Positions 16,629-56,900 of a DNA stretch of 64,000 nucleotides are shown in pieces. Under the pieces are notes generated by a model. It saw nothing but the letters and a program-made list of their open reading frames with translations, did no database searches and was not told the origin of the DNA. How positions within the stretch are numbered: the first letter of the stretch is position 1; the number at the start of each line of letters is the position of its first letter. This DNA is from Tubiluchus corallicola (taxonomy: Eukaryota > Priapulida > Priapulimorpha > Priapulimorphida > Tubiluchidae), in assembly GCA_030141605.1 (NCBI GenBank), contig JAQGDQ010000039.1:681146-745145 (forward strand), given 5' to 3'. Position numbers and translations under genes: made by a program.

Positions 16629-19600
16629 TTAATGAGTTTTCTTGTGGAACAGCCATGCAGCAGTACCAGCCAACACCATAAACAGAGTGTTGACCATTGG
16701 TAGAGTGGACAGCAGAGAGATAGTAGAAATGGCATGGCCACTGAAAAAAATAAATAAAACATACCTGTAGCAGTAAATAATGAATAATGACAACAGTATA
16801 ATTATGACTGAGTGAAGTGCTGATTGTCACATAAAAATTCAAGAAGTGGCTACATCGTATATATGTGCCACTGTGCAAAATTTTGGGATGACTCCTAAAG
16901 TTTCGAATTAGAATTATCACTAAAAATCTGTCTTCCCTATCTGATCTGATATACATATATATATATATAAAATATAGAAGCACTAAGTAAGATTTCATTA
17001 AGATAACGAGTGCTTTTGAAGTATGATATCATCACCGGTATCTTGGAATTGCGATGTCACACTAGAAACTCTGGACTTCGTTCAACTATCCCTTAAATTT
17101 AATTACGATCGGCTGTGAAATTATACACTTCAACTTTGTGATCCAACAATCTTTTTTATTTTATTATTTTCTCTTCTTAATTTTTGCAACTTTTAACTAT
17201 TGCAAATTTGTCTCACACCACAGCAGCAGAGTAGTGCTTGTTGTAAAACATAAATGTAAGCTGTACACAATATATGAACATTAACAAGCTGTTAACGCAC
17301 AAAGTGAAAGTTCCTGTATATTCCTGTAAAATTTGTAAATATTTAAGTGCATATAGAGCTGCTTAAGTCCCATAATTCACATACTGATGTTGTTTATTAA
17401 TGACCATTTAATCTCGAGCAGTGAAAATGACTGTCTAATGGTCCACTACAACTGTAACACAAGCCAGACAAAAACCTAATTTGGACTTCTTGATGCCAGA
17501 CTAAACTGACTCATAAACAAATAGAACACCAAGAAAACTGTTAAAATGCCTAAACGTTGCAAAAAATTAAAGTATTTTACTGTCACAGCAAGTAGCATGT
17601 TCTCTCTTTTGACGAATGTTGATATTCCAAAAATAATCCAAGAACAAAATCCTGTTGAAAAAGGGTTACAACGTTTTGAAAAAAGCTACAGTAACAAAAT
17701 ACTCATTTACTTACCTTGCACACCCATGAGCTGTCCTGGCACCAAAGATCATTAATGCACCACCAATGAGGGCGTGCACTTTACTTGGACCAGGAATTTC
17801 ACCAAAAGTACCAGAAGCTCTAGCTGACAGGAATCCACCAAGAGCAATGCCACCACAAAAGAAAATCTAGAACAATAAATGAAACAATTTACAAACAACT
17901 ATTAGATATGGATGCAACATGTGTCAAAGATTTTCATTTGCAGTGATTTCTGTAATTGCTAATTATACTAAAAATTACTTTGCTAATGATCGTGCTCCCT
18001 AGAGCATAATGAAGTGCTGACAAAGCGAATGTCATCACGAAGTCAAATGATGGAATCGTTTGTTTTTTTCTATGAGTCTATTTTGAAAAACTAGTACAGA
18101 ACGAGAAGCATTGTTCTCAAATAGGTTACTCAACTAGGTCATTTAGAATGCCATTTAATGTTGTCATGAATCCCTTTTTTCATTAATATGTTATTTAGAA
18201 TACTGTTTATCCGTTTATCCAATTTACCATAAAAACTTAGAATACAGAATGCAAATCTATTATGATGTCACAATATAAAAACTGACTAAGAACTTATTAC
18301 AGGGAACAATGAGAATGAGAACAACACCACAGTAAAATGGATGACTTTGTAGAGTTTCTTTACAAGTGAGGACAAGTGAGGAACCCAACAAATATTTAAC
18401 AAGTTTAGCTATGCCATTTTTGTGAGAAGTTTTTGGTGTGCTGCTGCAGATAACTTACTTTACCATGCGGTTTTCTATGACCTCGAAAACAAAGGCTCCA
18501 ACAACAACAATAAAATGTCAAAATATTTGCATCAGAACATATCTTGGCCAGTACTTTTTCATTACACATGATCTAGGACTCATCAGGACATATATACAAA
18601 CCTGCCACCAATTTTTCATTCCGCTACGAGTTTTTGCAAGATATGGCGATATTTTCTGCAGGGGATTGCAACAGAAGGCTTGCGAAACAATTGAACAGTA
18701 ACTTGTGCTTGCACCCACGTGTTTGCTCAAGATTTGCACAATTGGAATGTTCAGCAAACCAATCGTGACGCCTGTGAACAATCAAACAATCAAAGCTACT
18801 TTCAATTGTACTGTACATAACTATGGACAATGGTAACAAATGATGTATTACAATTTTAAAATTTATTCCCCAATCCTTGCCGTTGTACATTGCATACATA
18901 CATATATCCAGGTAACTCTTTGAATCATTAGCCTTGTTTAGCACTTCGCAAGCTGGATGCCAGTAACTCAGCAGCAGCAATGCCTAATTGCCTACTGAAC
19001 AAAGACGGATATAAATGGCAAAACTGGAAATTATCTAATTCTCAAAGACAATCCTCTAAGATGAGACACACACACACGGGTGGCAAAGGTGTCTTAACAA
19101 CATCTAGAAATATAGATCCTCCAAGAGTGAAGTAAATAGTTGCAGCTGTAAGTAGCAGCAGCAAATAGTACTACGAGCATTATGCCAAGTGACTATGCCA
19201 CTGCTTATCCATTACTTTATTGATTATACTCAGTGTTTCTTAACTTAAGCCAGTGGTTACCCATCTATTTACGATCAGTCTTGCTGTTGCTTAGCTTAGA
19301 TCTCTCTACGTCTACGCATATTATGACCACTCAGCTATTCTCCTGTGTACACTAATATTCCTGTGTAAGTTTAATAATTGCATATTGGTGACATGTCTTC
19401 AACAAACTCAGCCTAGCTTATAAATGCTATACTGTCCTTTCCAACTCCAACTCTCCAATAGTAGGGAAGGGTGGCTCATTACATTTATCTTCACATTGCT
19501 TAAGCTGATCAATAATTATTTTTGATCAGGTAAAAAGCATTAAACTGGTACTGTACGATTCGTTCACATTTGCTGCAAAGACTGTAGTTGGGTTTACACA

Positions 19601-22600
19601 AAATTTTATAGGCACTATTATCGAAACAACTGAAACTATACAAGTTGCAAACACAACATAGACAATATTGACAATATCTTTCTCCATCCTATCAGATATC
19701 CATTCCCTCAAAAAGCCTAAAGGGTACTAATATAGCATACCTCAGATCATTTTATTCATGGTAGACTTCTATGAATTATTTGCAACAAATTAACAATAAC
19801 ATAAAAATAAAACGTAGCAGCAATTCTTAACCAGATATAAATTATGGTATTTCATTAATCAATAGTAACAGTTGTTGGGAAAAAAGGTAACATCTTTTAC
19901 AAGGTTGTTTTTCACTTAACTTGAAGCCAAATAACTGAAGAAGCTACACTGAAAATTAAACTCTATCTACAACTAGGAGTAAATTGTCTTTCATTGAGCA
20001 ATAATAAACATTATATAATCATAACTGAATAGTGAATGAAAGTAAATAGTAAGCAAAAGGTTACCTGCCAGCCAAGGTGCACAGGCTTGCTGACTGAGCC
20101 AGTTATCAGCTACCGTTTCCACAACCTAAGAGAACAAAAAACATTTTATTAAAAGCCATTTACAGTAAATAATTCGGAGAAGTTATATTAAGAAACTATG
20201 TGAATTAAAAAAGGCTGATGTGCATTAATCATACTCAGCATTGTTTATGCTGTGTCATTTTTATGGCAGCATTACAAGCTGTCAAGCTCTACTGATGAAC
20301 AGGACAAATCCCCACTCATTTCCCCCATGTGGACAATCCCCAGTGGCTTCTTGTTACATCAAAAAGTAGTAATTGTGAAATACTTTTTTGAAAATTTAAA
20401 TTATTAAAATAAATGTTAGCTATTATATTTAGCTAATATGTGTAGTAGCCAAAAATGATACACAGAATAACTATTTCAAATTAGTTAGCCAACATAAGGA
20501 AAGCAATACACTGCAAGGATTATATAACATGGGAAAAGAGAGACGGTTTGCTATTATGTTCGTTATAAGTTATTACAGACATGGATTGTCAATACTAGTA
20601 GTTGTTATGGATTTAGATGTATAAGTTTAGCAAAATCTGGAATCATGTTTGCTGTGGCCTCAGTCTCGAATGTTTTAAAAAATTGTAGAGACACTTGGAA
20701 CAACAAACCACAGGTTGAATCATTCAACCTGTAATAATTTAAAAGAGACAATCTTCATCTGTGGTTACCACACTTTGCTGCCATTCCAGAGTTTAAGGGT
20801 TCGAATTCTGCAAGCATCAAGGTTTTTTTAGCCATGTTCGAACCCTAGGACTCTTTGGTCACTTTCCTAAGTTTCCTCAGCCTTAATTTAATTCACGTAC
20901 TGTGGGAAGAAAGACGACTGAGTGACAGGCTAACCAACTTTCCCCCTCCATCTATTTTAACACATCCAGGCATACGTTATTCTTACTTTTCTTTGTCATC
21001 ATATTTCAATGATTTTAGTGAGACATCAATAATAATAATATAAAATAAGATACTAATAAGATGAGATATTAATAAGATGTCAATGCTGCTTAGAAAATGT
21101 ACGAAAATCGTGTTTATACGTTTATACTATTTGCAAAGACTAGGGGTGAGCATTAAGCGTTTGAGTTTGAACATCTGAATCAAATTCGAATGAGTTTTTT
21201 TTAGTTTGAATTCGATTGGAACCTAAAATTACAGATTCGAGTAATTCAGCACTTTAACCACATACGACCATTATCATTAAAACATTTGAAACATCATGCA
21301 ATTAGCATAATTTAGCTCCAATTTTTGTGCACAATTTTTAAGCAAATTATTGACCAAAATCGAGCATTGCTTTGTAAGACAGCTTTTCACTGGTGGTTTG
21401 AAAACTTGTTCGAAAACAGTAAAAATCACCTCGAATTCAAAATACTGAAACTCAGTTCGATTTGAATTCGAAAATCACAAATTCGATTCGATTTGATACG
21501 CTTTCTGTTAGAAAATGCTCACCCCTAGCAATGACCACCAAATTTAAGATAGAGTAAAATTGTTAGAGATAGGCAAAACAAGTCACCTTAAGCAGTGCTA
21601 ATGCGAATTAATGTGTAGTGTGTTAAGATGAAAAGTATGGCCACTGACAACTGCAACAATTGATAAACCATAGCCTCTGTTATTGGTCTCTTTTCATTTT
21701 TTCGTTGTAATATAGATCTGACTTAGATCATTCATTCAGTCTTGTTTACCTTATAATATAAATTACCTCTTCCTTCCAAGGGAAAAACTTCTCAAGTAGC
21801 CAAATGTCCCCAACAAGAACAAGAGCTATCGGTGGAGCTAAGAAAAAATAGGGTGTTGAGAACATCGCCTGAAGCCTAAAAATAAAAAAATATAAATAAA
21901 TATGAATAAACAATTGCATTTTAATAGTAACTACCAAATAAAATTGGCATATTTTACAAAAAACTCATGAGGTAACTACAGAACGCTAAAGAATATTCCG
22001 TCTTAATAGAAATTGTCTTAGAAAGACAGTATGAAAGAAGTAAGAACATAGACACGACTTATTAACTTTCACAAATTATTTTCCCACAAAACATGCGTAT
22101 CATAAAACATAGTAAAACTAAGTACACTAATTTAATCAAAATGATGAAAGAACGCCATTATGGGGATTTAGGCAATTTTTACTTAAAGAAGAGCCAAAAT
22201 AAAGACTGTTGCTTTTGTGGAATAAGAATGACAGGTTAATTTTTTACGAAACTGACTGACATCTAAGGCATTTACACAAAGTAAGTAAATTCTGTTTGCA
22301 ATGTCCATAACAACTGCCGTAGGAACTTTCTTATAAACAGGAACTTAGTCAGCTAAAACTTAGCCAACAAGCATGGTTACAATAGTTAAAAAACAAACAT
22401 TGTTTTATACGTTTGTTGATGATAGTCATCGGGAATGTAGGATTCAAACAGCAAGGCTATTCACGCACGAATGAAGCAGCAGTACGCAAGTCTTGCATAC
22501 TCGGCTATATTCAAACATGGCATAAAATTCTTATCTGGAACACTAATGGCGCATTCAGACTAGCGAGTTTTCGGTCGCGAGTTTTTTTATGTGACAGGAA

Positions 22601-25600
22601 ACTCGCCAGTGTGAACTGCTTTGAGAGTTACTGTCGGCAACATATTCAAAACTCTCTGACAGTTGCTGCAAGTTGATTAAGTGTCTAGTGTGAATGCCTC
22701 ATTGAGTTACTCTTGACACTTCTCGTAGCGATTAGAGAAGTGAGTGTCAGCTTGTGCTTACTGTCAGAGAATAACTGGTAGCAAGTTTTGCTCTCTAGTC
22801 TGAACACATTTGCAAGTTACTTGGTGAGAAAACTCGCTAGTCCGAACGAGTTGTAAGCAGCATAAGGCCAGAAGGAAAACAACAATGTGCTTTTACAAGA
22901 ATTCTCATCGGGACAGTTTCAGAACAAACATGATTGTAGTGGAATTCAATTTCAAAACAAGCCAACACAAACGACACTACTTAGCTCAAATGTTTCAAGA
23001 GTTTCATTTCTTGAAATGCAACTTGAAGCAGGAAATTTGTAGGCAATTTGAAAAATGCTACAAAAAAGATACATTCTTGGGGAAGAAGGGGGAGGACTTG
23101 GAAAAAAGTTTCAGCTAACTTGCCTCTACGAGTGCTAAGCCAACTTAGCTTACGTGTATCTAAGTCAAATAAGTCAACAAGTATGTAAAAAGATATGTGT
23201 GATTACAAATATTACGTGTATCTTTCAGGTAACATCAGTCCTTTAGGTGCCGTAAGCGAAACTACAAATGGTTCCAATAACCCATATGTTAGAGCACCGA
23301 TGTATCCACCCAGTAAAGTATATGCTAGAAACAAAAAACAAAAAGGTGAAAATTTTTTTACCATAAACAGCAGCTATACACAACTGCTATTGAACTTTTG
23401 CTATTGTTTACCTAAGAATTTAAACAGTGCATCAAGTGAGTGCACGGCTCTGATATACAAGTTTGCTTAAGTTTTTCTCCTTTATGCATTGGACACTTTT
23501 GACAGATTTGACCATAACAGCCAAAAATTAAACCAGATACAAAACTTGCCAAGTAAGTGTTTAAAGCTTCTATAAGGATATGTAAAAGCAATCAAACACA
23601 AAATGTGTTAAAAGATTGAGTTAATAAGTTGATTATTTCATGCAACCAAAATTTATAAATAACTAGCATGATTAGAACAATAAAGTGACTGTGTAACTGC
23701 ATAAAAATCTTGAAATTTTATGTTTTATGTGTAGACGCTAAAGAAAAAACAATTTTTACCGATTTCGTGGAGCACCATTCTCGTACATTTGGCTTAATGG
23801 CTTTAAAATTTCTCATGTGAAAATGTATGGTGCAAAAATTACCATTCATTCTAGTTCTAAAAAGTGACGAGAAGCTGATGTAATGAGTTTTCAAACATCC
23901 CCCTTTGAACTGCTGGCATAACAATGACAGTACATCTGCACTTTTGACTTTTGCACCGCAAATCAATAAGCTGGGTCGGAGTGGTAGTGATTACCTTCAA
24001 GCTGTGGTAATATTTGCTAAAAAAATCTATTTTATTCACTGGGGTTGTGTTGAATACAACAAAAAATAACCATTCTAGTTCATTTAAAGAACTTGCAATA
24101 AGTTTACTTCAAGCTATGTAATTGTGGCTTACTATATCACGAGTAAAATATATTCAAGACAGGTGCAGGGCGAGTCAAGAAGGTGGCTCCGTTTGAGAAA
24201 GAGCATAATTTCATTATCCTAGAGGCCTCAAAAGGTCATAATCAGGCCCTGGCCTTTACAGCTTCAGTTAAGGCTCAAGCAAACTAACTTAATGACTGTA
24301 CAAGCATTTTTAAATAGCCATGAAAAACAGATCGGCGCTACAAAACTCTCTAACTTTTTATTTTTTAACTAACAAGGAACTGTAAAAACTTCACATAACC
24401 ACCATAGCACACACGCAACTTTAGTATAACACACTAAATAGGGTAACATCTGTATGCTCAATACACCAGCATGTAACAGGGTACTTATCTAAATTGTACT
24501 CTGCAAAGCACTTGTTGAATTGATACTCTGCAAGTAACTAATGAGAAAATCTGTATTAAATTCTGCAAACAAATAGAAAATTGAGGTCTGATTAAATCAG
24601 AAGATAAATATTCTAATCTATAACAAAACCGTCATCGTATAGGTGCTTTTACGTTCTAACATGGCACGTTCCACCTGTTGATGCCAGTCCACTCCACTGC
24701 TTAAGCCCGCTGCATCATCCTTCAAATTGCAAGGTGTTTGTTAAATCTTTTTGCAGTATATCTATATATGTCAGTAACTACTGACCTTAACAGAGGCTCT
24801 TGAGGTAGTCTTAGGGCATGACCAATCCAATGCAACCTTCTTATTTGTATTTGTTTACTACAAGGATTTTTCTTCACCACATCATATAGATCATCATTGG
24901 ATATTCTGACAGGCCATTTAATATCTAACAATTTTCTATAGAGACATATTTGAAAAGTGTCAATTTCCTTCTGCTGTTTAACTTTTAACTGGTGATTAGA
25001 TGAATTGTTGACCAGTGACCACAGCTAAAACGCTGTGTGACTAGAAATACAAAGCATGCTTATTTCTTTTTGGCTATGAAACAACATAGAAGTGACCAGA
25101 TCTATTCTTTTTGTGGTGGTATGCATGTAACATAGATTTTACCAAGTCACATGTAAATGCCTTGTTGTCTGCCATGGCAGCAGATTAATTTGTAAACAAC
25201 AGCTTCTCGGAAAATAAATTAACTTTATTTGCTAAACCGCTTAATGAATTTTAATTTATTTTGCTTAATTTATTTTTATTTCCACTTTAAATTCACATTT
25301 TTTTCTCATACTCACTGTTACATGGATGGTTTAATTTTATACAACTTAAAACAATAACCTGATATAAACATAAATTTGAAGACTAATTAGATTAGTATTT
25401 TTTTAACCAAGACTACAAACTTAAAATCAGAATTTGGGCATGTCTAACAAACAAAATCAGTAGTGCAGACTGTGTTTAATATGCAGAGATGCTAGCTTTT
25501 CTTCAACATTTAAAAGATACAAATGTTTCAGATAACTGTGAAACCTCAGTTATTATTAAGATAAAATTGATGAAGTTGCTAAGTGCTACAAAAGTACTTA

Positions 25601-28600
25601 TTCAAACTGAGAAAATGGTGAAATCGTAGGTGGCTAGAGGCATAAAAAATATAGTGAGTGTAGTCACCATATTCTAGATTACTGATTTAAAACATCTCAG
25701 GAATTGTGAACAGTAACAGCTACCCAGCTAAAGTGGCATGAGCTTGTAATTTACTCTTTTTTGCTAATGTAACAAATCGTATGCTTTTTACACAACTGCC
25801 ATAAACATTCACAATATACCAAAATATATGCGGTAGCATTGTATACTGTTTCATGACACTCTAATAAAACTGTGTTAATGAACTATAATCTGAATCACGT
25901 TCTGGAATGACAACTTAAAACATTTGAAACTGATCAAAATGATGAATTTTTAGCTATTTAAAAAACACTACAAACTAAATTGATTTACATGATAATCATA
26001 AAAAATAATATCTGTTACTAAGATATTGTCAAGGTAAATAATTACATACTGCTTCTCAGTTAAAAAGCTGTAAATAACAAATTAGGGATCATTACACTAG
26101 TAGTCGCTTTGAGAGAAGAACAATGTAACAGTTATCACACTACATATACACTATATATAGTAACAGATCTTACTATATATCATTCCATTGCCTTAGTTGG
26201 AACTTTACCAACACCTTGGTTAATCCTGCTTATGCCTTGACTTCCTGGAAGTTGATTATGTAATATTATCATTAACCCAAAAACATCAGCAAACACAACT
26301 ATGAGTTGGTGAAATTAAATTTAACTACTTATGGCATATAAAATCGATATAACAAAATCAGTACCCAGCGTCAAGAACAAGTAAGAAGTACATACTCGTG
26401 AAAACAAATTTATTATTTCTATTTCATGATTCATGACCAGCATGAACAAACAGATGTAAAATTCCTACATATGCAAGATGAACGTTGATTTTCTAAGTTG
26501 CAATAAAATTTTCAAGTTATGTGCAAGTTTTGCACCAGCTTTCCTTAAAATCATAAAGCATTTATTTATCAACCTCTCAACCCGCCTGCCATGAGATCCT
26601 ACCAAGACCTATGGTTTACTGGCATGACAAACTACACAAAAATTTACATACACACTACATGTAACAAATTAAAACATTTTACGAAACTATATTACATAAT
26701 CAATTATGTATTAATATTACATAACTCTGTGGTATAACACCAAGACCTATGGTTTACTGGCATGACAAACTACACAAAAATTTACATACACACTACATGT
26801 AACAAATTAAAACATTTTACGAAACTATATTACATAATCAATTATGTATTAATATTACATAACTCTGTGGTATAACGTAAAAATAAGCTCTGCTTTTAGT
26901 CGTCTGTTTTTTTAATTCTAAAACAATAAACGATACAAAAATCCAATTACCACAGTAGCAATGAGTGGAATGATGTAAGTCCAGAGTCTTGACAAATAGC
27001 ATAAACTCAGGTCAGCAACCAAATGACATAAAACATGTTTTTTGTCTGCTTCACAGGCTACCAAACCTTTTGAAAGAATCTGTTTCATCTCTTCCATGTC
27101 TGTTTCATCTTCAGGGACCTTTTCTTCAATGATACGCAGCGCCTTGTAAAAGATGGCTTTCACAGCATGTATTGTTGTGGCATCAATCATCATGCGAACA
27201 GCTTCGCCTTTCCGAATTTTTACGACACTCCTCAAAACAGCTGGGTTGTTCTAACACCTCTCTAACGTGGCAACAGCCATTACTTGTGGTATTGCGCAAA
27301 AATTAAAGACGCTTTGATTATGAAGTCATGACAGATACAACGTCACATCAGGAACATGTTCTAGGGCATTAGCAATTAACTCATTTAAGCACGGAACTCC
27401 AAGGGATTCGTTACTGGCAAAATTTCCGAGATCGTCTGCGTACTTCTGCCAACATTCTTTAGGCCAAAATTTCCATCCATCGTTGTGGTCTTCAAGGTAG
27501 TCACGGATTATGTTAGTTTTTTGCAAAAATAAGCCCATGGAATTCGCTAGTTTGTCATCCTTGCCAACAATCTCGTCTTCAAGCTTGGAAGCAGAGAACA
27601 ATCTAGACAATCCTATGCCAACAAGACCTGCGACGTAGTGACAATATTGGTCCCATTCTGAAAATGTGTCTATGTCCTTTTCAAGAAAAACCGTCATTCC
27701 TGCCCCCATTTTCGCACAAATGTCTGATATCACATCCTGATACATTACGTCCAGAGAGCGAAATTCTTCGGAAACATCAGTAAACTGTTCCAGAACTATA
27801 CCATTTTTATCATTACTGTCCCAATAACACCATTCTGGGTCGTACAGATGTTGATAGAATGTTTTCAGCATTGGTATTTTCTCCTCGGCCGGGATCGTCA
27901 TGTCGTCTTCAATGGTATCCAGCGCACGCAAAACAATGTAGAATATACACACTGCGTGTCTTAGCTCTCCCTCCAAAGCTCGTATAACGGCGGCAAAACT
28001 TCGACTTGTTTTGTTTAGCAAATTGTAACAAGTACGAGCTGAATCCGTCATGTCATCTTCGTCTACTTTACTCGAAATAGACACAATTTTGCCACTCTTA
28101 AACTGGAGAAGAGCAAAGACCTCTTCCGGATGACTGAGAGACCGCAGGAAATCCATGGCTGTTGCACAAGTGTAAACCTTTGTGACTTGTACTAACCTGC
28201 AGTGATTAATTTTTTGAATAATAATTAAACGGCAACATATCCTTGCAATAACAATACTAACATAAAGCAACGCCGACAGTAAATGTTTAGTGTTGTAACA
28301 CAGCGTGTCTACCGATGCATGGTGAAAGAACTGTACCAGGAACACTATTGGCTGTTTACAAACTCCACCAGTGCATTCAGCGAATGAGCGATTCCGAATA
28401 TCAGCTGATCATGTTATGACAGCTAACTAGCTGTGCGCAGAAACTGATGCAGACTGAGGAATGCTGAAGATCGAGTTTATAAAATTGATAGAATTTTCTC
28501 TCAACGCAGTTTGAGTTTTTAACGAATTGTATTCATTCAGTGAATCATGAATTAATTGTTATTAAACAGTTATGATTTTTTTTCGGTTTATGTACTGTAT

Positions 28601-31600
28601 TTGACATTTATATTATATTACTTTGCCAATGTACATTGTATGTATTTGTGAAAATAAAATTGAATTGAATTGAATAGTTAACGATAGTGTAAAATTGATT
28701 TTTGTGTTTTCGTCAGTTTCTGCATAATATCATGTATGCAACAAGTCTACAACTACAACCTGACTTGTGTACTGGAACAAATCATTCAAAAATTTAGAGC
28801 ACATTCGCCGCTGGACAGGGCTAATTTTCACCAGACCACATAAGTCAGCGCATTTTACAAAGTTATCGAGCAAGAAAATGTAAGAGTTATAATGCGAAAT
28901 CGGCAGCAGAAACATACATCACGTCTACTATACTTGCAACAATTACAATCAAACGTGGCCTTGTACATATGATACAACGATGCTAACCTAATGACGGAAA
29001 TCTAAATTGGGTTGAATCTCCATAAGTGCTTAGTGGATATCCAAGAAGTGACGTCTAACATAATGTCAATCATTTTCGTTGACTGCCCAATCAGCGTGCA
29101 AGTTATTTCACACCCTTGCAGAGTTTACTTAACACTGAAACGTTCGGGACATTTAGCTACAGTTGCCTCTAATACTGTCACGAAAAATGCTCAACTTTTC
29201 GTTAGTCAGCGGGAAAAATATTGACCTGACTCTAGACTTTATTATTGTCAATTGAAATTGCAAGTGAATTAGTAGAAATATATAGTCTAGTTTCGTTTAT
29301 AGGTAGAAATGCACACAGCTTACGCCTATATAAATTGCAAGTGAATTAGTGGAAATATATAGTCTAGTTTCGTTTATAGGTAGAAATGCATACCGCTTAC
29401 GTCTATAAGTTGCTGAGTAAACCATTTCGCAATCAAGAAAATACACAGTTTAGTTTATGGCTTTGCATGTTAGACAAAAACAACTATTTCATTAACTTTA
29501 AATTAGGACAAAACAAAAAGTTTTCTTTTCTGGCCAGGTTTTATTAACCTTAATGAGATCTTCAGAGTCAAAATTAATTCAAAAGTGGTCAAAACTTATA
29601 TTATACATCAATGTAATGTTAGTTAATTTTACACTATTTTTCTGGTTATAATCGGGGTTAAAGGCGCCATTGGGAATTATGTGACTCGGGCATTCAATAT
29701 AAAGGTCGTCAATGGAATTGAACTATTAAATTTATTCCATTTCCGTAGCCTGACAAACGGAAAAATACAAAAACTTAATAAATCTTGCAGACAAGCACAT
29801 GATTAATTAATATAGGAAAATACATCGCAGACTTAAAGGCAAGAGAGACCTGCAAGGCAAACTGACTTAGTTTCTTTATTATACTCATGTCTCTATATTT
29901 TGTAGTGCTTTGAAAGTTCATGTCTACATTCTGTTTAAATTGAAAAGTCATTTTTTGGCTACTTGAAGTGTTAATTTCGAGTAAGAAATAGCTGCTGCTC
30001 TGCAAATTTGTGCTTATGAAAAAGTGCAATCAGTTTAATCTGCTGATTAAACATTAGTTGTGACTGTCATGATGTTTAGTTTAGTTTAGTTTAGCTTAGA
30101 CAGTTGTTGACCTGCGCGAGCTGTTGTCCCAAATGTAGCTGAGCTTGCTTACGTTACAGCGGGGGCAGAGCGATATTTGACGTCAATTGTTTTGCAGGCT
30201 ACAATGCTCTGTCAAGTTAGAATAAAACACAAATCAAATGCTAAATAGTTCTTTATTGATCAGGCTTAGACAATGTTATTATTACACTATATATTTTGAA
30301 AATGTGGTATATGGGCAATTTTGTGTATATTTTTGTACTTTTATGTACACAAATCAATAAGTGATTATTTTCTTAAGCTGATGAAAAATGATACAACTTG
30401 GTAATTATCCAAGAAACTGCCACATTTCTTGCACTTTTCTTGATTTTTCTTTTTTATCCATTTTCCTCTTTTTCCATCTAATTGTTTTTTCATTTCTTAT
30501 ATATATATATAGATATAGATATACATAATTGCATTTTCAAAATATATAGGGTAACAATAACATTTATATGCATTTTCATAATGACAAATGCAATAATAAC
30601 ACAAATGGTTAGTATTTAGTGGCTATTTAGAACGTTAATAAGAATAAAAGTACGTTTATCAGCTGATATACACGTTAAGCTAGTCTGTTAGTTAATTAAC
30701 AGCGTATTTAGTAAAAGCATGATATCATTGTTTGAGAAGCTTGGTATTACATGTGACTCACAAGACAAAATTTTATGCCATTATCCCAACATTGCGTTAA
30801 CTTATATAAGTGCAAGTGCCTTTAGCATTTAAACCTTCAGCATATCCCTCTGACACTTGACTCTCAGCCTCATATTACTCATCATAAAATTTCCACCCCT
30901 CCCACATTGTATTCTATAAACTTTTTCCTTTGTGTTTCATCCCAGATTACTTTATCCTTCTGATTCTGAATTTTTACTCCAGTTACATTTCAAGTTTTCA
31001 ATTCTCTGATATACTGCATGTCTTTCTATACTTGAGTTACAATTTCTCAAAACAACACAAAAAATTTATGCCCTTTTTAAAATTCTACTATGATTATAAT
31101 GTAATGTCGTATAATATAACTATTTTAACTGTAAAACAAGAGATTTGGAGATTTAGTGCACACAACTGGTTATTTGCTTTTACTTGTATTCATTTGAGCA
31201 TCCGCAAACATACATTCACTCACAGTATGTGCAACTATTTCCGTAATTCAACAACATAATAATGTCTGTCGACTCTCTGTTCTGGTATTTGGGCAATTAT
31301 GTGCCTATTTTTGTACTTTCATTTACACAAATCAATACGTGATTATTTTGTTAAGCTGATAAAACATGATACAACTTGGTCATTATCCAAGAACTGTCAA
31401 ATTTCTTGCACTTTTTTGATTTTTATGTATTTATCCATTTTTACTCTTTTTTTCCATCATCCCTTCCTTCAGTCCTTATGCCCAATTTTGTTTTGTTCTA
31501 TTTTATTTATTAACAGGCAAGTCTAATAAATTGCAAAAGCTAAACAGTGCCACATTGTCAAGATGCCTTATATCGCTTTTACAGGAAAACCGTTTTGCAT

Positions 31601-32726
31601 AAATCCCTAGGCAAGCCCTACTGTGCGAAAATATGTAACACTTAATTAACAACGATTAAAGCAAAGCGACTACACAATAGGTTTGCCCTATTCAGACAGG
31701 TGTTAAACGTGTTAGCTTCACGCTGGGTTAGGCAACCGGAATATTCACTAAGGTAGGTACGTGTTAATAATTTTGCTGGGTGTCCCTTAAAGTGCTGCAA
31801 GACTGCTAAAACACCATGGATGTTCACGCAAGTCAGCAGTGGGAAAACACGCAAGTAAAAATTTTTTCTGCATTTTTATCTACAGTAACTGCGCACCTGA
31901 TGATCACCCCCAGTACATAATGCAAAAGCGGAGCAGTGATCTCAGCCGCCGCAAGAGTTAGCTGGCCTTTTGTTATTAGTTAATCGTTTAGCGGTTGGTT
32001 CCAACCTCCACGGTCTTCATATAAAAGCTGTGTTAGACTACTACTATTCCATTCCCCAAGCAAGCTAATTACAAAATATAAAAAAATGAATAGCACTCTA
32101 AATATAAATATCGGAAAAGTACAGCAGTTTCTCTCCTTTAAGAAGTTTCAATTTCATTGCTGGATTTATGTAAAATATTCAACTAGCTCTCTTTTTCAAG
32201 TCACAATTAAAACTACAGTGTTTCACTTCAATTTAGCATACTGACTGATTGAGATTAGCTACTGAAAAATTTTTTTTGAGTCTGTCAGTTACTACAGCTT
32301 TTTAAATGGGCAACTAGTATAAAAAAGTTTGCTTTCCAAGTTATTTTACCATGTTTAATAGAACATTTTCGCTAACAACACGAGAGAAACAAGAAAAACA
32401 GACACCAAACACGTAATGTAAAGAGATGACATTATAATTATAGAATGTGCACTATTGTGTAGTAACTAACAAGATAGAGAACAATTTAATTTTTTTATAG
32501 AACCACAAAATGGCCTCCAGCAGACTTTCTAATCAACAGGCAAAACTGAAGTCGAATACCTGCATTATGCAAAATGCTTGATTATAACATTTATTGACTT
32601 ATCTAGTACTTAAACTAGTAACTGTTAAATATCAAGCTAAGTAGCCCAAGCTATCAGAATAATTGACAGTAGAAACAGACCCAAAATTAATTATTAATTA
32701 TAAAATAAATTATGACATGAAAAGTA

Positions 32727-32758
<32 letters not shown>

Positions 32759-35700
32759 GTTTACCTCATACAAAAATATACAGCTTACAAAAATAACAGG
32801 TTTTAGTAGAATGTGATTAAATGGGATGCTAGTAACATATCTACAGAAATTCAACTTTGTAACATTCGCGCTGATTCACAGTACTCCTGTAATTGTATTA
32901 CAATATATGATGTTGCAAGAATATACTTAGTACCAGGTATCTTAAAACATAATCTTTTCTTCATAAAACATAATTTTAAATGAGTTCTTTATCTTTAACT
33001 TCACATTTTCGTTCAGATCTACAGTACAACAACATTTTAATCGTAAATTTATTTGATTTTTATTGACATAGTAGCAAAACCTTGGAATTCTCAACGTGCT
33101 AGATTTTGCAGTGTTTCTCACAAAATTTAATTTACGGCTATCTATTAAATATTTTGCAGGTATTGTGCCACAAAAATACATTAACAATTTACGCTTTCAT
33201 TTTGTCCAAAACCGAATATTTTTCTATAAGCAGTGTTCCACTCTACCCTGATGGCATTAACTTCGTGGTTTGATATACGACTAATTTTGTATGCGTAGAG
33301 CAAAATGTTAGGTAATATGTATTGATCGTAGAAGGCTATTATGTCATTACAATTGTGGCCCATACTTGAAGGCCAGTGTCAGTGTATTGGCCTTCATATC
33401 GTTTTTAATGCTACGGCTCCCAAGTGCAGCAATGTTGGTTCTGCACACACCCCTCTCTATTGAGTACTCATTGTACATCGTGACAACTGTTTCATGAGAA
33501 ATTATAGAGACTTAGGATCGAATTTTACAGAAATGGTTATTCCTTTTTTAAATACCATCTGCGTATGTTTTTGGGAGGCGTGTTGTCTCCACCTTGTGAT
33601 TCGTCATCGTTGCCATTATGTGATTCCACTGTACATCCTGTATTACTAAAGATACAGTACCAAAGCGCTCAATGCGTTTTGTACAGTGGTTGCCTAGAAT
33701 GTCTCCTGTTAAACTGTGTGTGGTTCTAGCTACAGTGAAGCTTTCCCCATGGCTGCCGGCGACAAAAGTAGCCGTTCAAATGTAGTGTATGCTTACACCT
33801 GTGGTGTGTGCCCGGCATCTTACAATGGTTAGATGAAACGTCATCTGTGCACTAGAAGTGGGAGGCATTGCAAGGACCAGCTTCGCTCCCACCATACTGC
33901 ATGCAGAGGTGATTTGGATGGCTTTGACTTTGTACTAACATCTTGCATAGTACAAAAAATATTCAGGATCTCAAAATAACACAGGCCTTGTACATAGGTA
34001 ACACCATGCTGCACTCTATCTATTTTTGTGTTTTAAATCATTTTGACTCAATTCTATCAGGCCCTGTAATGGTCCTCGTGGATCGAGTCTCTGCATTGCT
34101 TTCAAATATTGTAGGGTTCTGTTATTGTGTTTCCCCTGGTTGTAAAAAAGTGCAAATGCAAAGAAGTTGTTTGTTTTATTTTTCTAATGCTTATTTCTGT
34201 GGTTCTTCATGTAATCTTAGACTAATGGTTTACTGTGTTGTGAACTTTTTTGATATATAAAGTAATCTCATATATAAAGTAATTTTTTACATTTCTTTTG
34301 AATTTCTTTCTGGTTATATCATTCTGACAATTTAAATTCTAGTCTTTGAACTTGTAATGATATATTGTGTGCCTTAATATTGCAATATGGAATGTACTAA
34401 TTATTTCTTTTTGGCTTGATTTATAGCATTGAAAATGACTGTTACGATCATCTGTGCATAATGAACTTATTGACTCATAAAGGCCAGGACTCTTTCATGT
34501 ATAAAACAAACGTTTTTCCTGTGCAACAAACAGTCAAATTCTTAGTCTTAACTAGCACATTTCATACGTAGTTGTTTCGTATGCTTATAGTAGCGTATAT
34601 TTTAATGTTAAGCCAAATGAAATTAGTGATGTACGATTACCGCGAGGCAAAATAAATTCTACCTTACCTTATCTTGGACTTTCAAAATGTACAGAAATTG
34701 TAAATTTTTAATTACCAACTGCCACGAAAATAGAAAATTTTTTTGATATAGTTTTCTAGGAATACCACAAACAATTAAAATGATTAGTATCTGTTCATCT
34801 AAAATTTATAGTTCTTGATATCGACCATAATAATTTTTCACTTACCAGCATTTTCTACGCCTGCTCCAAGCTGACAATAAGCAATACTGGGAGTCTGCAA
34901 ATAAACTGAAATTAGAAAGTCTAAAAATAAATACTGAGGTGAACAAGATTGTCCGATCAGAACAAACATTGGATTGTCTCTACAATCTTGAAGTAAAGTT
35001 AAGTTAGATTTTAAGTTCATAGTGACCTGCAAAACACAACAGCAACCAATAGCTTTCATTGTTTACAAACCACTGTTATCAAACATTAAAAAGTTCGTTT
35101 TTCAATCATATCAATTTCACAAACAACACTCTTGCTTGACTATAGATGACTAGATATATAGACATATATTTTATCCTACATCAAAGTTAATCTACAGTAA
35201 TAATAATGGCATCGAAATGCTCACGAATAATAGAAGCTTGAGAATGTCACAATTATCAGAAAATAAGGCACATGGCCATAATTTGCAAACTAGTTGCCAT
35301 TTGACACAACAAGATACAAAATGCAGTTTGCATGACCTGTTAGAACTTTGTTTTTTGCACGGCTTCAAGGATTTTTACCTAACGAAACAGCTTGACAAAC
35401 CAAAGACAAGAACTAATGCTAATATCTCTTCAGTGGAAGTCATTTGGTGAGACATACTAGATTAAATGATGCAAGAGAAACTTTAGTAGCAAAGGCTTTC
35501 AGTTTATTTCAAAATTAACAAAACAAACAGGAAAAGGCCCAGCAATTATAAACTTTTATTATTATGAAAATATTAATCAAAAAGCAAAACAAACAGCTTT
35601 AAAATGCATATGAATTTCCAGAGAAAAAATAGTGGAGCAAAAAAATTATATTATAAGTGCACATACCGCACCACATAGGGCCATGCCTATACCATGAATG

Positions 35701-37121
35701 GAACCCCCAACAGCACAAGCTAATGGTCCCTTGTTGTTGTTTTTGAGACCATTAAGATGGTCCTGCAACAGCTGCCGAGTTTGCGGATGCATGTCGGGAA
35801 TTAGCATCATTGCACTAAAAGACACTAAACCTAGAAGACACAAATTATAATGTAGCTTAATACTTGAGGTATAAGATGTACGTAAGATGTAATAAAAAAG
35901 TATTATAGTTGACATATATAAAAGTATTTATTTAAATGAATGGCATTGTCTGCAAATGAATGATTTTGTTACACATTACTCCACTAAAGCAAGAAAACAG
36001 CTACAGAAAATTAATAGCAATTCATTACAAAATGTATGTAAATGACAAGAAATGAGAAAAAATAAAACTACCAGGCCTGGAGCTGATTGCAATTACAATT
36101 ACAAGTTCTGCTGTAATTACAACTGCAATCCTAATTATTCTTATAAATGACAAAAACGGTAATTATAATTGTGATATAGCCTAGTAATTGATGTAATCAG
36201 TTTTTAAAGATAAAAAATTTATGCTAAAATGCTTGCATTATTTTCATTCTTTATTGAATTGACGAAAACTAGGTCTACACATTCCTCCATTCACTTTAGT
36301 GTCTATGGCAGATTAACAAATAATGGTATGAGACACTCAAAAAGTACAAACCTTTCTTTTAGTTTCAAACAAAATAAGTAATTGTAACTGTAATTGTCAC
36401 TTTCTTAAGGGTGTAATCGTAATCCTGCAGTGTTCAAACTGTGACACAATTGCAATCGTAATCTTCCTACTATAATCGGCCCCATGCTTGCCTCCCAGCG
36501 TCGTCATTATTATTAATGAAATCAAACTGAAGAATATAATAACCATTGTACATACCAGTGGCAATGGCTGACATCCAAACTTTTGACATGCAGAACTGTT
36601 CCAGGCCAAACTGCCCCTGAATGAGTCTTGGTTCAACAACTGAAATTTATTAAATACTACTTTTTTGCACAGAGCTTATTGCAAATACTCAAAGTAGTTT
36701 AAAACTTTTCTAAGTCACAGCTACTCACTTTGCTAAAAATATAAGTGGACTCTTATATAATTTTTTACACTATTCCCAGCAAGACAAAAAAGTGAAGAAT
36801 ATACACACCGGACAGCTTCATAAAAAAACTGATATTAAAACAAATCCCTCTACCTCTACTCTTTTCCAAAGCAATTCCCATCACTATTCCAGAAGCAGAT
36901 GACAATCCAAGCTTGGCTAGCGTACTGAGCACAGACCATCCTGTGCTCGACTCTGCAGACTGAGATTGACCGCTGGTCGAATTCACATACAAAAGTGGTA
37001 GACCAACTAGAAACTTTCTATTTGATCGTAACTGGTGTAGCAATGGTGCTGGATGACGTATTTTACCATTTGATGAAGCTCCATTTGAGCAAATACTACT
37101 GTGCCACTTTAACGTACTCAT
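16629..37121 (-). CDS. YeeE/YedE-family sulfur-compound (thiosulfate-type) membrane transporter, 10 exons
   Basis: Exons in coding order: 37121-36854, 36639-36556, 35830-35667, 34894-34846, 23324-23216, 21875-21767, 20125-20065, 18771-18602, 17866-17715, 16740-16629. All have AG acceptors and GT donors with compatible phases, giving 425 residues. Bacterial family members import thiosulfate across the inner membrane. Matching features are repeated Gly-rich hydrophobic helices, VVEPRLIQGQFGLEQF (about 90-105), SIHGIGMALCGATPS (161-175), YTLLGGYIGALTYGLLEP (190-207), and the C-terminal GARTAHGCASGHAIS (380-394). Residues 1-56 have no acidic residue and many Lys, Arg, His and Ser, so a mitochondrial leader is possible (inference). 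The usual Cys of the first core motif is Thr173, with Cys170 nearby. The exon 5 donor is the least certain: gtaata is used, and a gttacc site 15 bp earlier in the coding direction would also stay in frame. Intron 4 (11,521 bp) contains a squalene synthase pseudogene. Substrate is inferred from family only. Confidence 0.88.
21141..21527 (+). mobile_element. hAT-like MITE, family A, full-length copy (intron 6 of the YeeE-like gene)
   Basis: The left end TAGGGGTGAGCATT is the exact reverse complement of the right end AATGCTCACCCCTA. The flanking 8-mers GCAAAGAC (21133-21140) and GCAATGAC (21528-21535) match at 7 of 8 positions, as expected for a hAT target duplication. The interior is rich in GAATTCGA-like motifs and carries no transposase. 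Three partial copies occur at 1-237, 38445-38634 and 43689-43843. Confidence 0.85.
22551..22850. mobile_element. MITE candidate, family D (intron 5 of the YeeE-like gene)
   Basis: The left end CATTCAGACTAGCGAGTTTTC is mirrored by the reverse complement of the right end, CGTTCGGACTAGCGAGTTTTC. Related words (ACTCGC, GTGTGAACTG, AGTGTGAATG) recur inside in both orientations, as in MITEs with subterminal repeats. I see no clear target-site duplication, so the exact ends and superfamily are open. Confidence 0.55.
24640..25030 (-). mobile_element. Non-LTR retrotransposon fragment, C-terminal end of the reverse-transcriptase ORF
   Basis: The minus-strand translation contains KLLDIKWPVRISNDDLYD and then IQIRRLHWIGHALRLPQEP. 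This is the sequence type found after the reverse transcriptase in many animal LINEs (a W-P-x-x-I-S-N segment followed by R-R-x-x-W-I-G-H). A later segment in another frame (GVDWHQQVERAML) may continue it. Stops and frame changes show it is dead. There is no RT core, so the clade is not assigned. Confidence 0.65.
26601..26876. repeat. Perfect tandem duplication of a 138-bp unit
   Basis: Bases 26601-26738 and 26739-26876 appear identical over the whole unit, from ACCAAGACCTATGG to GTGGTATAAC. It lies about 40 bp beyond the stop codon of the squalene synthase pseudogene, in what would be its 3' untranslated region. The identity implies a recent duplication or an assembly artefact. Confidence 0.85.
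26918..28156 (-). pseudogene. FDFT1: Squalene synthase copy, intronless, with two in-frame stop codons
   Basis: Squalene synthase joins two farnesyl diphosphates to make squalene at the ER membrane. From ATG 28156 (context GCCATGG) a single frame of 413 codons aligns end to end with animal FDFT1. It has SRSFAAVIRAL (51-61), the first Asp-rich motif DTIEDD (80-85), CHYVAGLVGIGLSRLFSAS (172-190), the second motif DYLED (219-223), QSVFNFCAIPQVMA, and a hydrophobic C-terminal anchor (WTYIIPLIATVVIGFLYRLLF). Codon 277 is TGA where the family has Arg, and codon 302 is TAG where it has Tyr. The region between them is conserved, so an intron cannot remove both stops without losing active-site sequence. 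No introns or frameshifts are present, suggesting a processed retrocopy, although no poly-A tract or target duplication is evident. It sits on the same strand inside intron 4 of the YeeE-like gene. Sequencing error is the main alternative. Confidence 0.85.
28577..28675 (+). mobile_element. Solo 3' end of a non-LTR retrotransposon
   Basis: The segment with TTGCCAATGTACATTG, GTATTTGTG, then AAATAAAA and three TTGAA units matches the 3' end of the longer element at 44240-45523. This is the expected form of a strongly 5'-truncated LINE insertion on the plus strand. Confidence 0.7.
29255..29408. repeat. 77-bp tandem duplication
   Basis: AAATTGCAAGTGAATTAGT starts at 29255 and again at 29332. Each is followed by the same sequence (ATATATAGTCTAGTTTCG ... 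GCTTACG) with a few differences. It is non-coding. Confidence 0.85.
30306..30484 (+). repeat. Dispersed direct repeat, copy 1 of 2
   Basis: The sequence from GGGCAATTTTGTG through ACACAAATCAATA, GATACAACTTGG and the T-rich tract ending TTTTTCCATC recurs about 980 bp away at 31285-31465 in the same orientation with moderate divergence. Function is unknown. Confidence 0.7.
31285..31465 (+). repeat. Dispersed direct repeat, copy 2 of 2
   Basis: This is the partner of 30306-30484, with shared blocks ACACAAATCAATA, GATACAACTTGG and ATTATCCAAGAA. The spacing would fit a duplicated segment or the terminal direct repeats of a small element, but no LTR hallmarks (TG..CA ends, primer-binding site) are seen. 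Confidence 0.7.
32731..32757. repeat. (ATT)n microsatellite
   Basis: Nine ATT units occur in a row. Confidence 0.9.
32945..33420 (-). mobile_element. Non-LTR retrotransposon fragment (post-RT region)
   Basis: Minus-strand frames give WNTAYRKIFGFGQNESVN, then in a shifted frame YFCGTIPAKYLIDSRKLNF. An A-Y-R-K-I-F-G-F segment followed by a short Leu/Ile-rich block and a K-x-x-F run is typical of the region after the reverse transcriptase in many invertebrate LINEs. Frameshifts show it is inactive. Confidence 0.6.
33750..34680 (+). mobile_element. Penelope-like element remnant (GIY-YIG nuclease end plus 3' region)
   Basis: The plus-strand translation near 33780-33860 reads VVYAYTCGVCPASYNG, a stop, then MKRHLCTRSGRH. 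This fits the V-Y-x-Y-x-C-x-x-C...Y-x-G-x-T-x-R-H pattern of the GIY-YIG endonuclease in Penelope-like elements. It continues as LRSHHTACRGDLDGFDFVL and, after a frameshift, DLKITQALYIG, matching the family's L-K-I-x-x-A/S-L-x-I segment. About 600 bp on, an ACTCATAAAGGCCAGGACTC segment recalls the conserved non-coding 3' part of such elements. The sequence ends in AAATAAATTCTACCTTACC. It is inactive and 5'-truncated. Confidence 0.6.
36072..36486. mobile_element. Palindromic repeat, possible MITE (intron 2 of the YeeE-like gene)
   Basis: The left side GCTGATTGCAATTACAATTA and the reverse complement of the right side, which contains GATTACGATTGCAATTG, are similar. (A)ATTACAATTAC-like words fill both arms. 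The outermost bases resemble CAGGCC and CATGGGGCC. I find no matching target duplication, so the ends and identity are uncertain. Confidence 0.4.
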
Positions 37122-48025: not shown

Positions 48026-49531
48026 TTGAAGTGTTAGATACGTAGTTATGATCAATCAACAGGTAGAGATACCTAACTCAGGAATCAGGATCCATTTGTT
48101 ATAACATACTGCAGGGCATCAACCGAGAGAGTTGTCAAGTTGCAGGAACGCTAATTACGAAAGAGTGAGACTTAAGTAATGTTGCAGTGAAGCGGGGATT
48201 TCAAGTCCAGAATCTGATAAAAATTGTTTTTCGGGTCCTGTAGGAAAAAACTTAGTATTCACACTATTCACTGATTTTTTAAGTGCACAAAAATCCCAAA
48301 CTGGTGTTCTACGATGTGATGGATAGAATAGCCATTGGCTGCTGGCTACAACTGAATATTACTTTTCCTAATGTTAAATTTGGCGTGCATTTTCTATAAT
48401 ACATGTTCATGTATTCAATAACGCTCAAATTTTTAAAATAGCGTCTTTTTAGTTTTATTTGGCATTTTTATCCGAAAAAAGTTTATTACGTTTGACTTAA
48501 CATTTTGGGTTTTAATGAGAAACTGACAGCTTCACAGCTTAAAGGTACTTTAGAATTACACATAGTCCTTACACTTGTTTCTGTTTCCATTTGTTTTTGA
48601 AGATTAACATGTTTGCTGAATGCTGCATGTATTAATTTATAAGCATGCCTCTGTTGTAAAAATTTCAAGCTTGTCAAATCAGTGCTCAAAGTGCCTGAGA
48701 AGAGCTGTAGGGTCTTGTTAGCTAGTGAATGTGGGTAATGTACAATGCTTGTGCATCCGGTCCTGGTCCAGTAACTGCAGGCCTGGTATATTCTTAGAAA
48801 TATGAGGGTGGGGTACATATTACTCCCCGCCTGTTGATGCAGTTGGATTTTGGAGGTCTTTTTTGAGATTAAGATCACAATTTTTGTCCCTAAAAGAAAT
48901 TTTATTTTGCTCTAATGATCAAGCAATAGTTACATAACTCTCGCTGTGATGCTGTCTATTTTCCTTATGCATAATAATGCCTCAGTCTGAAGATTAGTTT
49001 AGCTGCTTAATATTATAAGCACATTTTTATTGCTATATGTACAAAGATGTTAGGTTTAAGGCAAATTAAGAACTGTATGTTTTTCTCTAACAATAATATT
49101 CCACAGTAAATAATTAAAATTATGCAGATATGTAGTATTCCCGATGTGATATTATATTGATACTGGAGCCTCTAGGCTGTGTCATTTTGCTGCTTGAATG
49201 TTTCACTCTATGTCTGTAAGGCCAGTGGGGCCAAGCCAGTCAAACTTAGCTCATGTTAGTTAGTGCCAGGTGGGAAAAGCTCACTGTAACATATTTGTTC
49301 TTGTCATTGATCTTGAAGGCTGGCAGGCCTTTAGGTATAAGGTATTATAAATCACTTTTACTTTTGCTTATCATTTGCTTAAAGCCCTGTTTTTAACTTT
49401 CCTAAAACTTGTTACTTTAAATGGTTGCTGTTTCGTTAATAAGTTATTTTATGAAGAAATTTACTAATAACTGCCTAGTAGTAGAAATTATCCTGAAAGT
49501 TTATTACTTGTTTTCAGTTTGTGCTGTAAAG
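48026..49531. other. Upstream region of DLGAP5, no other gene recognised
   Basis: A 130-codon minus-strand frame at 48486-48878 has no recognised domain and is not called. Just before the DLGAP5 start, TTGTTTTCAG ending at 49517 looks like a splice acceptor, so a 5' untranslated exon may lie in this stretch. Confidence 0.4.
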
Positions 49532-53966: not shown

Positions 53967-56900
53967 ATGGATGACACACTAGATGTTAGCATACAAAATG
54001 AGGTTAGTAAATTTCTTGGACTTGTGCGTTTTCTTTGTGTGGCATGTAAGTTATTTTTGCGAAAATTGCCTTCTTTATACCTAGCTTTTGCTTAGGCGGG
54101 CGCCATTTTTCTTCCTGTTTTTACTGTTACTGTATAGTAACTAACACGGGTATGATGGGTTTTATTGTTGGTGTGATGAGGATTACGCTTTTGGACTGTA
54201 TTTTCTTTCGCTAGCATGTTGTAATTATTGTAATTGCACTTTAATTCAGTCAGGGACTATGCAGCTGTGGAGATGATAAAGAAGCAAGTAATTCCGGTTA
54301 ATTTCTTAAGTTAATTTGGTAAATTTAACGATTATTATTAATTTACAGTAATGACAACTCCTAGCAGTTAGTTAACCTGATATATATACGTGCATGTGTT
54401 GTTGTGTTGTGCATATTTTTTCATTTTGTCAACTTGGTAGTGTCCGGAGATTGAAGAAGAAGGAGAGGAGCCGAAGATGGAGGACGGCAGAACTAGAGTT
54501 ACTTCATTAACTCAGAGATCTCTTTCCACTGACTCATCATCCAGTGGCCGACAAAAAGTATCCCGTCATCAGTTTCTCACCGAACGTGATCTTTGCGGAG
54601 ATTATTTTGAAAAATGGTCAGAGAATGATCAGGTGGATTTTGTTGAGTATTTAATATCACGCATGTGTCATACACAACATGGAGTCATCAATAGTTACCT
54701 CAAGCCATTGTTGCAGCGAGATTTCATTTCTCTTTTGCCAAGTACGTACCATTCTAAGTACTTCTGATATTTGGTGCAACTGATAGTATTTGGCGCAGGA
54801 TATGATTTTATGATTGTAGTGACTCATATCAGTGCATGAAAACTAATGTCATAGAGATGATGAGAAATAACGCTAATTTTTTATATAGTTTGCTAACTGT
54901 AGGTAGGTGCATTCCAAAGGTATGATTCTAGTTTTGGTGCAGCCGTTTTTTGCGGATTTATATCTGCTCGAACATGTATACAAGGTAGACACTACTTGGC
55001 TATTCACAATTTATTGGCTATTTTGCAAAAAGGCTAAAGTTACAATAGATATCTAATTATATTACTAATGGGTACATTACTGTACCTGGTTCAACCTACT
55101 CAACCTGTGTAATTGCTGGACATGTTTTGACCCAGAATCTTGCACTGTATTTTCATTTTACAAGAGAATCTCCTTTTCCAGAAAGGGGTTTGGATCACGT
55201 TGCAGAAAACATTCTTTCCTATCTTGACGCAAAGTCTCTGTGTGCTGCAGAACAGGTATCTAAAGAATGGTACCGAGTGATCTCAGAAGGTAACCTGTGG
55301 AAGAAGCTTATTGAAAGCAAAGTGAGGACGGACACCCTGTGGAAAGGTCTTTCAGAAAAACGTGGATGGTATGCATTTGCCTGTATTTTAGTTTAGTAAA
55401 TTAAATTGACTATAATCAATTTTTTTAGTTTTTTATCAGCATTCTTTTTAAAATCTTGCATGTTGTACAAAAGCCTCAACTGTTCACCATGCACAGTTAA
55501 CTAATTTAATGTTTCCAGATCTTTACTTCATGCTGGGTTTTTAGTAAGGTATTTTGGTGGTAAAAAGGGTTGATTGTAGATCAAATTTGATACTGAATTG
55601 TTCTTTCTAATAAAGAAGTTACTTCAAAAATGTGACTGTAACCTAATTGTGATAAGTGCAAAATGATCAGAAAACAGCTCCATTTACCATTAACACTAAG
55701 TATTATGAATAAGTGTTTTTTATGCAGCACACAGTTAATTGTGTTAATTAGAATTTGAAATTGTTAAATAAAATTGTCAGTATTTTTTGTTTCGTTTCTT
55801 AAGAAACCTGTGCACACATATTGTTCCACAAATGTACTTTGTTTGCAACTGAGCAAAATGCTGTCTTCAAATTATTGTCTAATGTCCTTTAACTCCACTA
55901 TGTGTTTATTTGGAATTCCTGAACAGTATTACAAACAAACATTTTTTAGTTAGAAAGCACAAATTCTTTTCCTTTATAAATTTATGCAAAACTACTGGAT
56001 GCTTGGTAGGGACCTTGGCTGAATATCAGCTAAGGATAAATCTGTAATTCTTATTCATTTAGGCATTTTTTTACCACACGCGATTGTATTTTGTTGATAG
56101 GAATAAGCATTTGTTCAAACCAAAGTTAGGAGAGCAACCAAAGGACCACAAATTCTATCGAGTGTTATATCCCAAGATAATACAAGATATTGAGGTATGT
56201 AAATTGTACGTTGAATGATCTTACTGTCGCATTGCTGTGTACTAAATCTTGTTCAGAAAATTTTTTTACTGTATCCATCCAACTGTTATGAGGTTCCATT
56301 CATATTGTTATAAATTACTTTTGTCTTTATTCAGGCTATTGACAATAACTGGAAATGTGGTCGACATAATCTGCAGCGGATACACTGTAGAAGTGAGAAT
56401 AGTAAAGGCGTTTACTGCCTTCAGTATGATGATCAGAAGATAGTGAGTGGCCTGCGGGATAACACCATCAAGGTATATATGTTGTTTGTTATGGTCTCTT
56501 TGCCTGATTTACATTCTTAAATCTAGTTTGGACTAAGCAAGTCCTCATCTAGACCAGCATTTAGACTGGCTGTGGACTACATAAAAAATGCAGAAAAATG
56601 CAATCAAAATCTGTTGATACAACTTAAAAAAATGATGCAAAATTTTTTGTATTGTCTCTCGTAAGTGTATATTTTTTAAAGCAAAAACCAAGTGTTTCAG
56701 GATATTGAGCTTATTTTAATATTTGTGAAAAATGTTTGAAAGTTTCAATAAAATTGCGGTACGTGTCTCTTGTAATTAGTAAAATCAATTTAAAGTCGTT
56801 ATCACTTCAATCCGCACTTGAGCGCACTCATTTTTAACGAAAATTGACGTCATCCGTTACTGTGCAAAATGTAAATACTTGCTATCCCTTCAAGTGCTTG

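Follow-up and report, generated by a model that had tools for sequence, protein, structure and literature searches.

For StYeeE, the YeeE protein of Spirochaeta thermophila, thiosulfate is thought to pass the cysteines C293, C91 and C22 in turn before it reaches C17 of YeeD, which contacts YeeE at R28, R98, E101 and E261, and in vitro StYeeE moves thiosulfate by itself (PMC11073785). The short forms PmpB and PmpA correspond to the N- and C-terminal halves of full-length YeeE and were reported to carry one cysteine each, at the positions of StYeeE Cys91 and Cys293, respectively (PMC11582611). Mutating either of these PmpAB-type cysteines abolished function in bacteria (PMC10812762, PMC11582611), and the same was described for any of the three cysteines of SoxT1B (PMC11582611). 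In Cupriavidus, YedE1E2 was reported to import zero-valent sulfur, for which both cysteines are needed, and pdo was present in 177 of 212 bacteria with YedE1E2 (PMC10812762). The genes yeeE-yedE-pdo2 of Acinetobacter were described as a BigR-regulated operon for sulfur detoxification (PMC7315123). The YeeE/YedE family moves sulfur compounds and is known chiefly from bacteria. Eukaryotic members have already been mentioned (PMC11073785), and in the sponge Aplysina aerophoba a host YeeE/YedE gene and SQOR, which is assigned to host H2S detoxification, were reported to rise together by day (PMC12879404), a pattern that fits a role beside sulfide oxidation.

We analysed a 64-kb stretch of DNA, called the window at its full length. 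Positions 37121-16629 of its minus strand hold an intact nuclear gene of ten exons that encodes a YeeE/YedE membrane protein, a single chain with about nine membrane segments (Table 1). The start ATG has an A at -3 and in-frame stops lie upstream of it. The ten exons sum to 1278 nt, i.e. 425 amino acids plus the stop codon, and the nine introns (214 to 11,521 bases) are all GT-AG, with phases 1,1,0,1,2,0,1,0,2 that keep the frame intact throughout. A ten-exon model with consistent phases had been proposed in the preliminary description of this DNA, and its coordinates match ours exactly.

Table 1 Exons, key codons and neighbouring ORFs of the YeeE/YedE gene. HMM E-values are those of the prokaryote-only models
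Feature	Position	Strand	Remarks
Exon 1	36854..37121	-	Start codon ATG at 37121; encodes the N-terminal extension and the first hydrophobic segment
Exon 2	36556..36639	-	HMM E 2e-4
Exon 3	35667..35830	-	Ends ...MALCGA, contains C170; HMM E 0.015
Cys170 codon	35673..35675	-	In exon 3; three residues N-terminal of the second-cysteine position
Exon 4	34846..34894	-	TPSIAYCQLGAGVENA
Thr173 codon ACT	34892..34894	-	Aligns with StYeeE Cys91; opens exon 4 right after the splice junction
Exon 5	23216..23324	-	Weak alone, HMM E 1.6
Exon 6	21767..21875	-	Encodes the larger part of the central hydrophobic segment 234-252
Exon 7	20065..20125	-	
Exon 8	18602..18771	-	HMM E 2.5e-4
Exon 9	17715..17866	-	Start of HGCASGHA, Cys387; HMM E 2.6e-6
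Cys387 codon	17720..17722	-	In exon 9; aligns with StYeeE Cys293
Exon 10 including stop codon	16629..16740	-	Stop codon ends at 16629; HMM E 0.026
GKAP-family ORF	49421-51511	+	Downstream; Pfam E 1.5e-15
Beta-TrCP D domain ORF	54441-54764	+	Pfam E 1.7e-22
F-box ORF	55049-55393	+	Pfam E 9e-12
Weak WD40 match	63543-63911	+	Pfam E 0.0021

Intron 4 also holds an intronless squalene-synthase copy (28156-26918, minus strand), the first part of which matches squalene synthase chains (best 8.3e-103). It is broken by two in-frame stops, TGA at 27328-27326 and TAG at 27253-27251, and is probably a processed pseudogene. A diverged direct repeat lies in the same intron (30305-30464 and 31283-31441, about 978 bases apart, 90% and 80% identity in two pieces). 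Elsewhere in the window, an ORF at 41337-40042 (minus strand) matches reverse transcriptase (RVT_1, E 2.6e-17), and the ORF upstream of it at 42339-41725 resembles, by eye, the endonuclease part of a LINE-type retrotransposon.

Residues 88-414 of the encoded protein, hereafter the query, matched the Pfam family PF04143 (Sulf_transp) with E 4.5e-32 and 112.3 bits (cut-off 27), covering profile positions 2-308 of 310, a result that bears out the YeeE/YedE assignment of the preliminary description. Nine hydrophobic segments, each a non-overlapping 19-residue window with a Kyte-Doolittle mean of at least 1.2, were found in the 425 residues, including one at 234-252 between the two halves. By its Pfam score, about nine predicted membrane segments and the cysteine C387 in the C-terminal half, the predicted protein is a member of the YeeE/YedE superfamily. 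The PDB structures 6LEO and 6LEP of TsuA/YeeE were matched weakly (E 0.0012 and 0.00075, respectively).

Because splice sites chosen by eye might favour a family match, HMMs were built without the query, from its 84 prokaryotic relatives alone, which themselves had originally been found and aligned with the query present. These models were scanned against 2,877 stop-to-stop segments from both strands of the window. The matches with E <0.1 were the five segments with exons 9, 2, 8, 3 and 10, which took the top ranks, all on the minus strand and in order. Sixth came a non-exon segment at 17479-17685 of the minus strand (E 0.12), and exons 1, 4, 6 and 7 were absent among the matches listed. When the spliced protein was scored, it reached 141.7 bits with the N-half model, which also includes whole single-chain proteins, and 85.4 bits with the C-half model.

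The relatives were drawn from a search of prokaryotic genomes, in which at least 451 of at least 594 candidate stretches were relatives; 80 prokaryotic loci were kept and four plasmid loci were added. Of the 84 loci, eight code for a single full-length chain and the other 76 for two half-proteins, a sample that leans to the two-gene type because the fetching alignment held two two-gene pairs. Among the relatives listed, the best identity over aligned columns was 88/275 = 32%, found for a locus of the two-gene type (L002). The top eight two-gene relatives were 30-32% identical to the query, in contrast to 19-27% for the eight single-chain relatives, with E. coli YeeE at 19%. In a FastTree tree of these relatives and the query (85 tips, 278 columns), the query had a branch length of 1.56 compared with a median tip of 0.18, and it sat in a 15-tip group (support 0.88) in which two-gene and single-chain forms were mixed, apart from the main two-gene Bacteroidota type. 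The preliminary description had proposed to compare the protein with its relatives in a phylogeny; in the prokaryotic part of that comparison no near bacterial relative appeared among those listed, but the tree neither dates nor places the gene.

The ORFs on one side of the gene belong to the GKAP, beta-TrCP D, F-box and WD40 families (Table 1), which we take to be animal-type, and the D-domain ORF also matched F-box/WD repeat-containing protein 1A in the PDB (2.8e-23). On the other side (1-16.6 kb), no Pfam family was found at E 0.001 in the 131 of 133 selected ORFs that were scanned, and Rfam and tRNA scans of the whole window found nothing. Two scans of viral contigs gave no relative and phages gave no match; plasmids gave seven matching records, four of which entered the set of relatives, the other three being further copies of E. 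coli yeeE. Since nine introns of spliceosomal appearance and animal-type neighbours coincide with the lack of a close prokaryotic relative (best identity 32% among those listed), bacterial contamination is unlikely as the source of the gene, in line with the earlier claim that it is a nuclear gene and not a contaminant. The wider suspicion of an artefact, be it contamination, a chimeric assembly or a wrong gene model, could draw on an exact tandem repeat of a 138-base unit in intron 4 that could be an assembly slip, but against the same introns, neighbours and distance from prokaryotes it appears extremely unlikely. The repeat (26601-26876, 100% identity) lies just downstream of the squalene-synthase copy and is either a recent duplication or an assembly slip.

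When the positions of the transport path were compared, the first cysteine, StYeeE C293, corresponded to C387 of the query and was Cys in 84/84 relatives. The surrounding GCxSGH motif is intact in the query; in the relatives, Ser at +2 was found in 83/84 (the exception being E. coli) and His in 81/84. The second cysteine, StYeeE C91, corresponded to Thr173, a position with Cys in 83 of the 84 relatives and a gap in the remaining one (L045), whose ORF ends early there. This rarity is judged against prokaryotic relatives, and Thr173 may not be unusual among eukaryotes. The third, StYeeE C22, corresponded to Val91 in an alignment with E. coli YeeE and was Cys in 2/84 relatives. The YeeD-contact positions are replaced by Q97, Q180, A183 and T358; glutamine is the commonest residue of the two-gene type at the first two (51/76 and 47/76, respectively), where E. 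coli YeeE has Arg.

These replacements bear on the reading of the protein as a thiosulfate importer like TsuA/YeeE, with a line of cysteines leading to a TusA-like partner. Family membership, the fold class as judged by sequence, the retained C387 and the in vitro transport of thiosulfate by StYeeE alone (PMC11073785) would agree with such an importer, which we nevertheless consider unlikely, given that the second and third cysteines and all four YeeD contacts are replaced and that the TsuA equivalog models of NCBIfam score far under their cut-offs (31.9 bits against 400 and 24.5 bits against 645). In view of Thr173, Val91, the contact positions and the TsuA scores, thiosulfate import, the activity named in the preliminary description, is not secured.

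Three residues before Thr173, position 170 is Cys in the query, Thr in 51/84 relatives and Cys in 4/84. All four of the latter also have Cys at 173, because the one relative with a gap at 173 carries Leu at 170. Thr and Cys at these two positions look exchanged in the query compared with most of its kin, and the relatives with Cys at both may plausibly represent an intermediate state. Since exon 4 opens with the codon of Thr173, a splicing error was considered. The stretch from GA to QLG is seven residues long in the query and in L002, and therefore no residues are missing at the junction. An alternative splice site or hidden exon supplying the missing cysteine was sought by a motif scan of both strands, which with the patterns used showed only the known exon 4. 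That in the sulfur path the second cysteine was shifted by one turn of the helix, giving a changed path without a YeeD-type partner and an animal channel for sulfane sulfur or thiosulfate that feeds sulfide oxidation, is a tentative reading to which we assign a small chance.

Since one of the cysteine pair essential in bacteria is missing in the query, sulfur transport may be lost, and by analogy with the bacterial proteins this missing cysteine weighs most heavily against the transport of any sulfur species of this kind. It seems doubtful that the protein has given up transport and now either has a different task or drifts; Thr173 stands where 83/84 relatives have a Cys whose bacterial equivalents were reported to be indispensable (PMC11582611, PMC10812762), but the reading frame stays open across all ten exons, their splice sites are consistent, GCxSGH is preserved and a new cysteine lies only three residues away.

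Neighbouring genes of the prokaryotic relatives were used as a further guide to function. Rhodanese was found in 32 and Lactamase_B in 27 of 98 ORFs (raw counts, with no background frequency); these ORFs had been selected by hand among 158 ORFs of 68 loci, in most cases as the closest to the gene on either side. Lactamase_B includes persulfide dioxygenases but is wider. Such gene company was seen in the prokaryotic kin, animal genes generally not being arranged in operons. By analogy, this context points to sulfane sulfur. In animals, the enzymes ETHE1, TST and SQOR, which correspond in kind to these prokaryotic neighbours, are located in mitochondria. Because prokaryotic gene context, published operons and animal enzymes of the same kinds agree, a role beside sulfide oxidation is our best guess; the neighbours of the prokaryotic genes lend indirect support to the connection with sulfide metabolism drawn in the preliminary description.

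Altogether, we see an about even chance that the YeeE/YedE protein moves reduced sulfur via Cys387 and perhaps Cys170 and thereby serves sulfide or persulfide oxidation or an antioxidant sulfur supply. Reduced sulfur, in the form of sulfane or zero-valent sulfur, persulfide or thiosulfate, would cross the protein centrally. Cys387 would be the putative contact on entry, and the role of the missing second cysteine may be taken by Cys170, which lies one turn earlier than the usual position. The protein would serve oxidation or antioxidant supply as is thought for its two-gene PmpAB (YedE1E2) kin, and not sulfur assimilation of the E. coli type with a YeeD partner. Its host membrane could be the plasma membrane or that of the mitochondrion.

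The N terminus was examined with regard to the latter. Residues 1-56 contain no D/E and six K/R, the first acidic residue being at 57. This is unremarkable because the protein itself is only 3.8% acidic, a composition at which 56 acid-free residues have a probability of 0.12, versus 0.001 at an assumed comparison figure of 11.5% acidic residues. Within residues 1-60, the highest amphipathic moment of an 18-residue window was reached by 3523/5000 shuffles, and an amphipathic presequence was rejected on this basis. Ahead of position 82 the query has 81 residues; the relatives, for which start codons were assigned mechanically, have a median of 35. Exon 1, folded alone, gave a structure prediction with a mean pLDDT of 47.9, too low to be informative. 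A mitochondrial inner-membrane carrier of thiosulfate or sulfane sulfur, imported via the N-terminal extension, would suit the basic, acid-free first 56 residues, the greater length of the extension and the mitochondrial location of ETHE1 and TST in animals, but with the moment within the shuffles and the acid-free stretch unremarkable at the protein's own composition we find this carrier quite improbable. Thus, the basic, acid-free N terminus noted earlier was seen again, while the mitochondrial targeting attached to it came out weak in two simple controls; such import is possible, but not supported.

To our knowledge, the membrane transport of thiosulfate and sulfane sulfur in animals is poorly understood. 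If this family, for which bacterial structures have been solved, has a conserved member in animals, that protein would be a tangible candidate for such transport, and the Thr173/Cys170 arrangement offers a clean test of whether the cysteine line proposed for bacterial YeeE needs exact geometry. Should eukaryotic members turn out to share Thr173 generally, this residue would set them apart as a branch of their own within the YeeE/YedE family. The gene is not the first of its kind in an animal, as the sponge host transcript has been published (PMC12879404). In the open-licence literature we found this one report on an animal YeeE/YedE gene and no paper that describes the cysteines of such a protein; what may be new here is the complete gene structure together with the state of the cysteines.

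Compared with known systems, the query is a single chain like TsuA/YeeE of E. coli and Spirochaeta thermophila and shares the first cysteine with both, and its nine hydrophobic segments compare with the nine helices reported for YeeE (PMC11582611). The query departs from TsuA/YeeE in lacking the second and third cysteine and the YeeD contacts, all of which are replaced, and the sequence match is weak. SoxT1 and SoxT2 of sulfur oxidisers, which have been linked to the import of sulfur for oxidation and signalling, are likewise single-chain, and three cysteines were reported as conserved and essential in SoxT1B (PMC11582611), which is likened to the query by description only. Also by description only, the host YeeE/YedE transcript of Aplysina aerophoba is, like the query, an animal member of the family (PMC12879404). 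Highest identity to the query, 32% over 275 positions in L002 among the relatives listed, was found in the two-gene type PmpAB/YedE1E2 (DUF6691 plus short YeeE), which resembles the query in Q97 and Q180 in most of the 76 pairs and, like the query, has no third cysteine. PmpAB/YedE1E2 consists of two half-length proteins with a cysteine in each half, whereas the query is one chain of 425 residues with a central segment that retains only the PmpA-type Cys387 and carries Thr173 in its N-terminal half.
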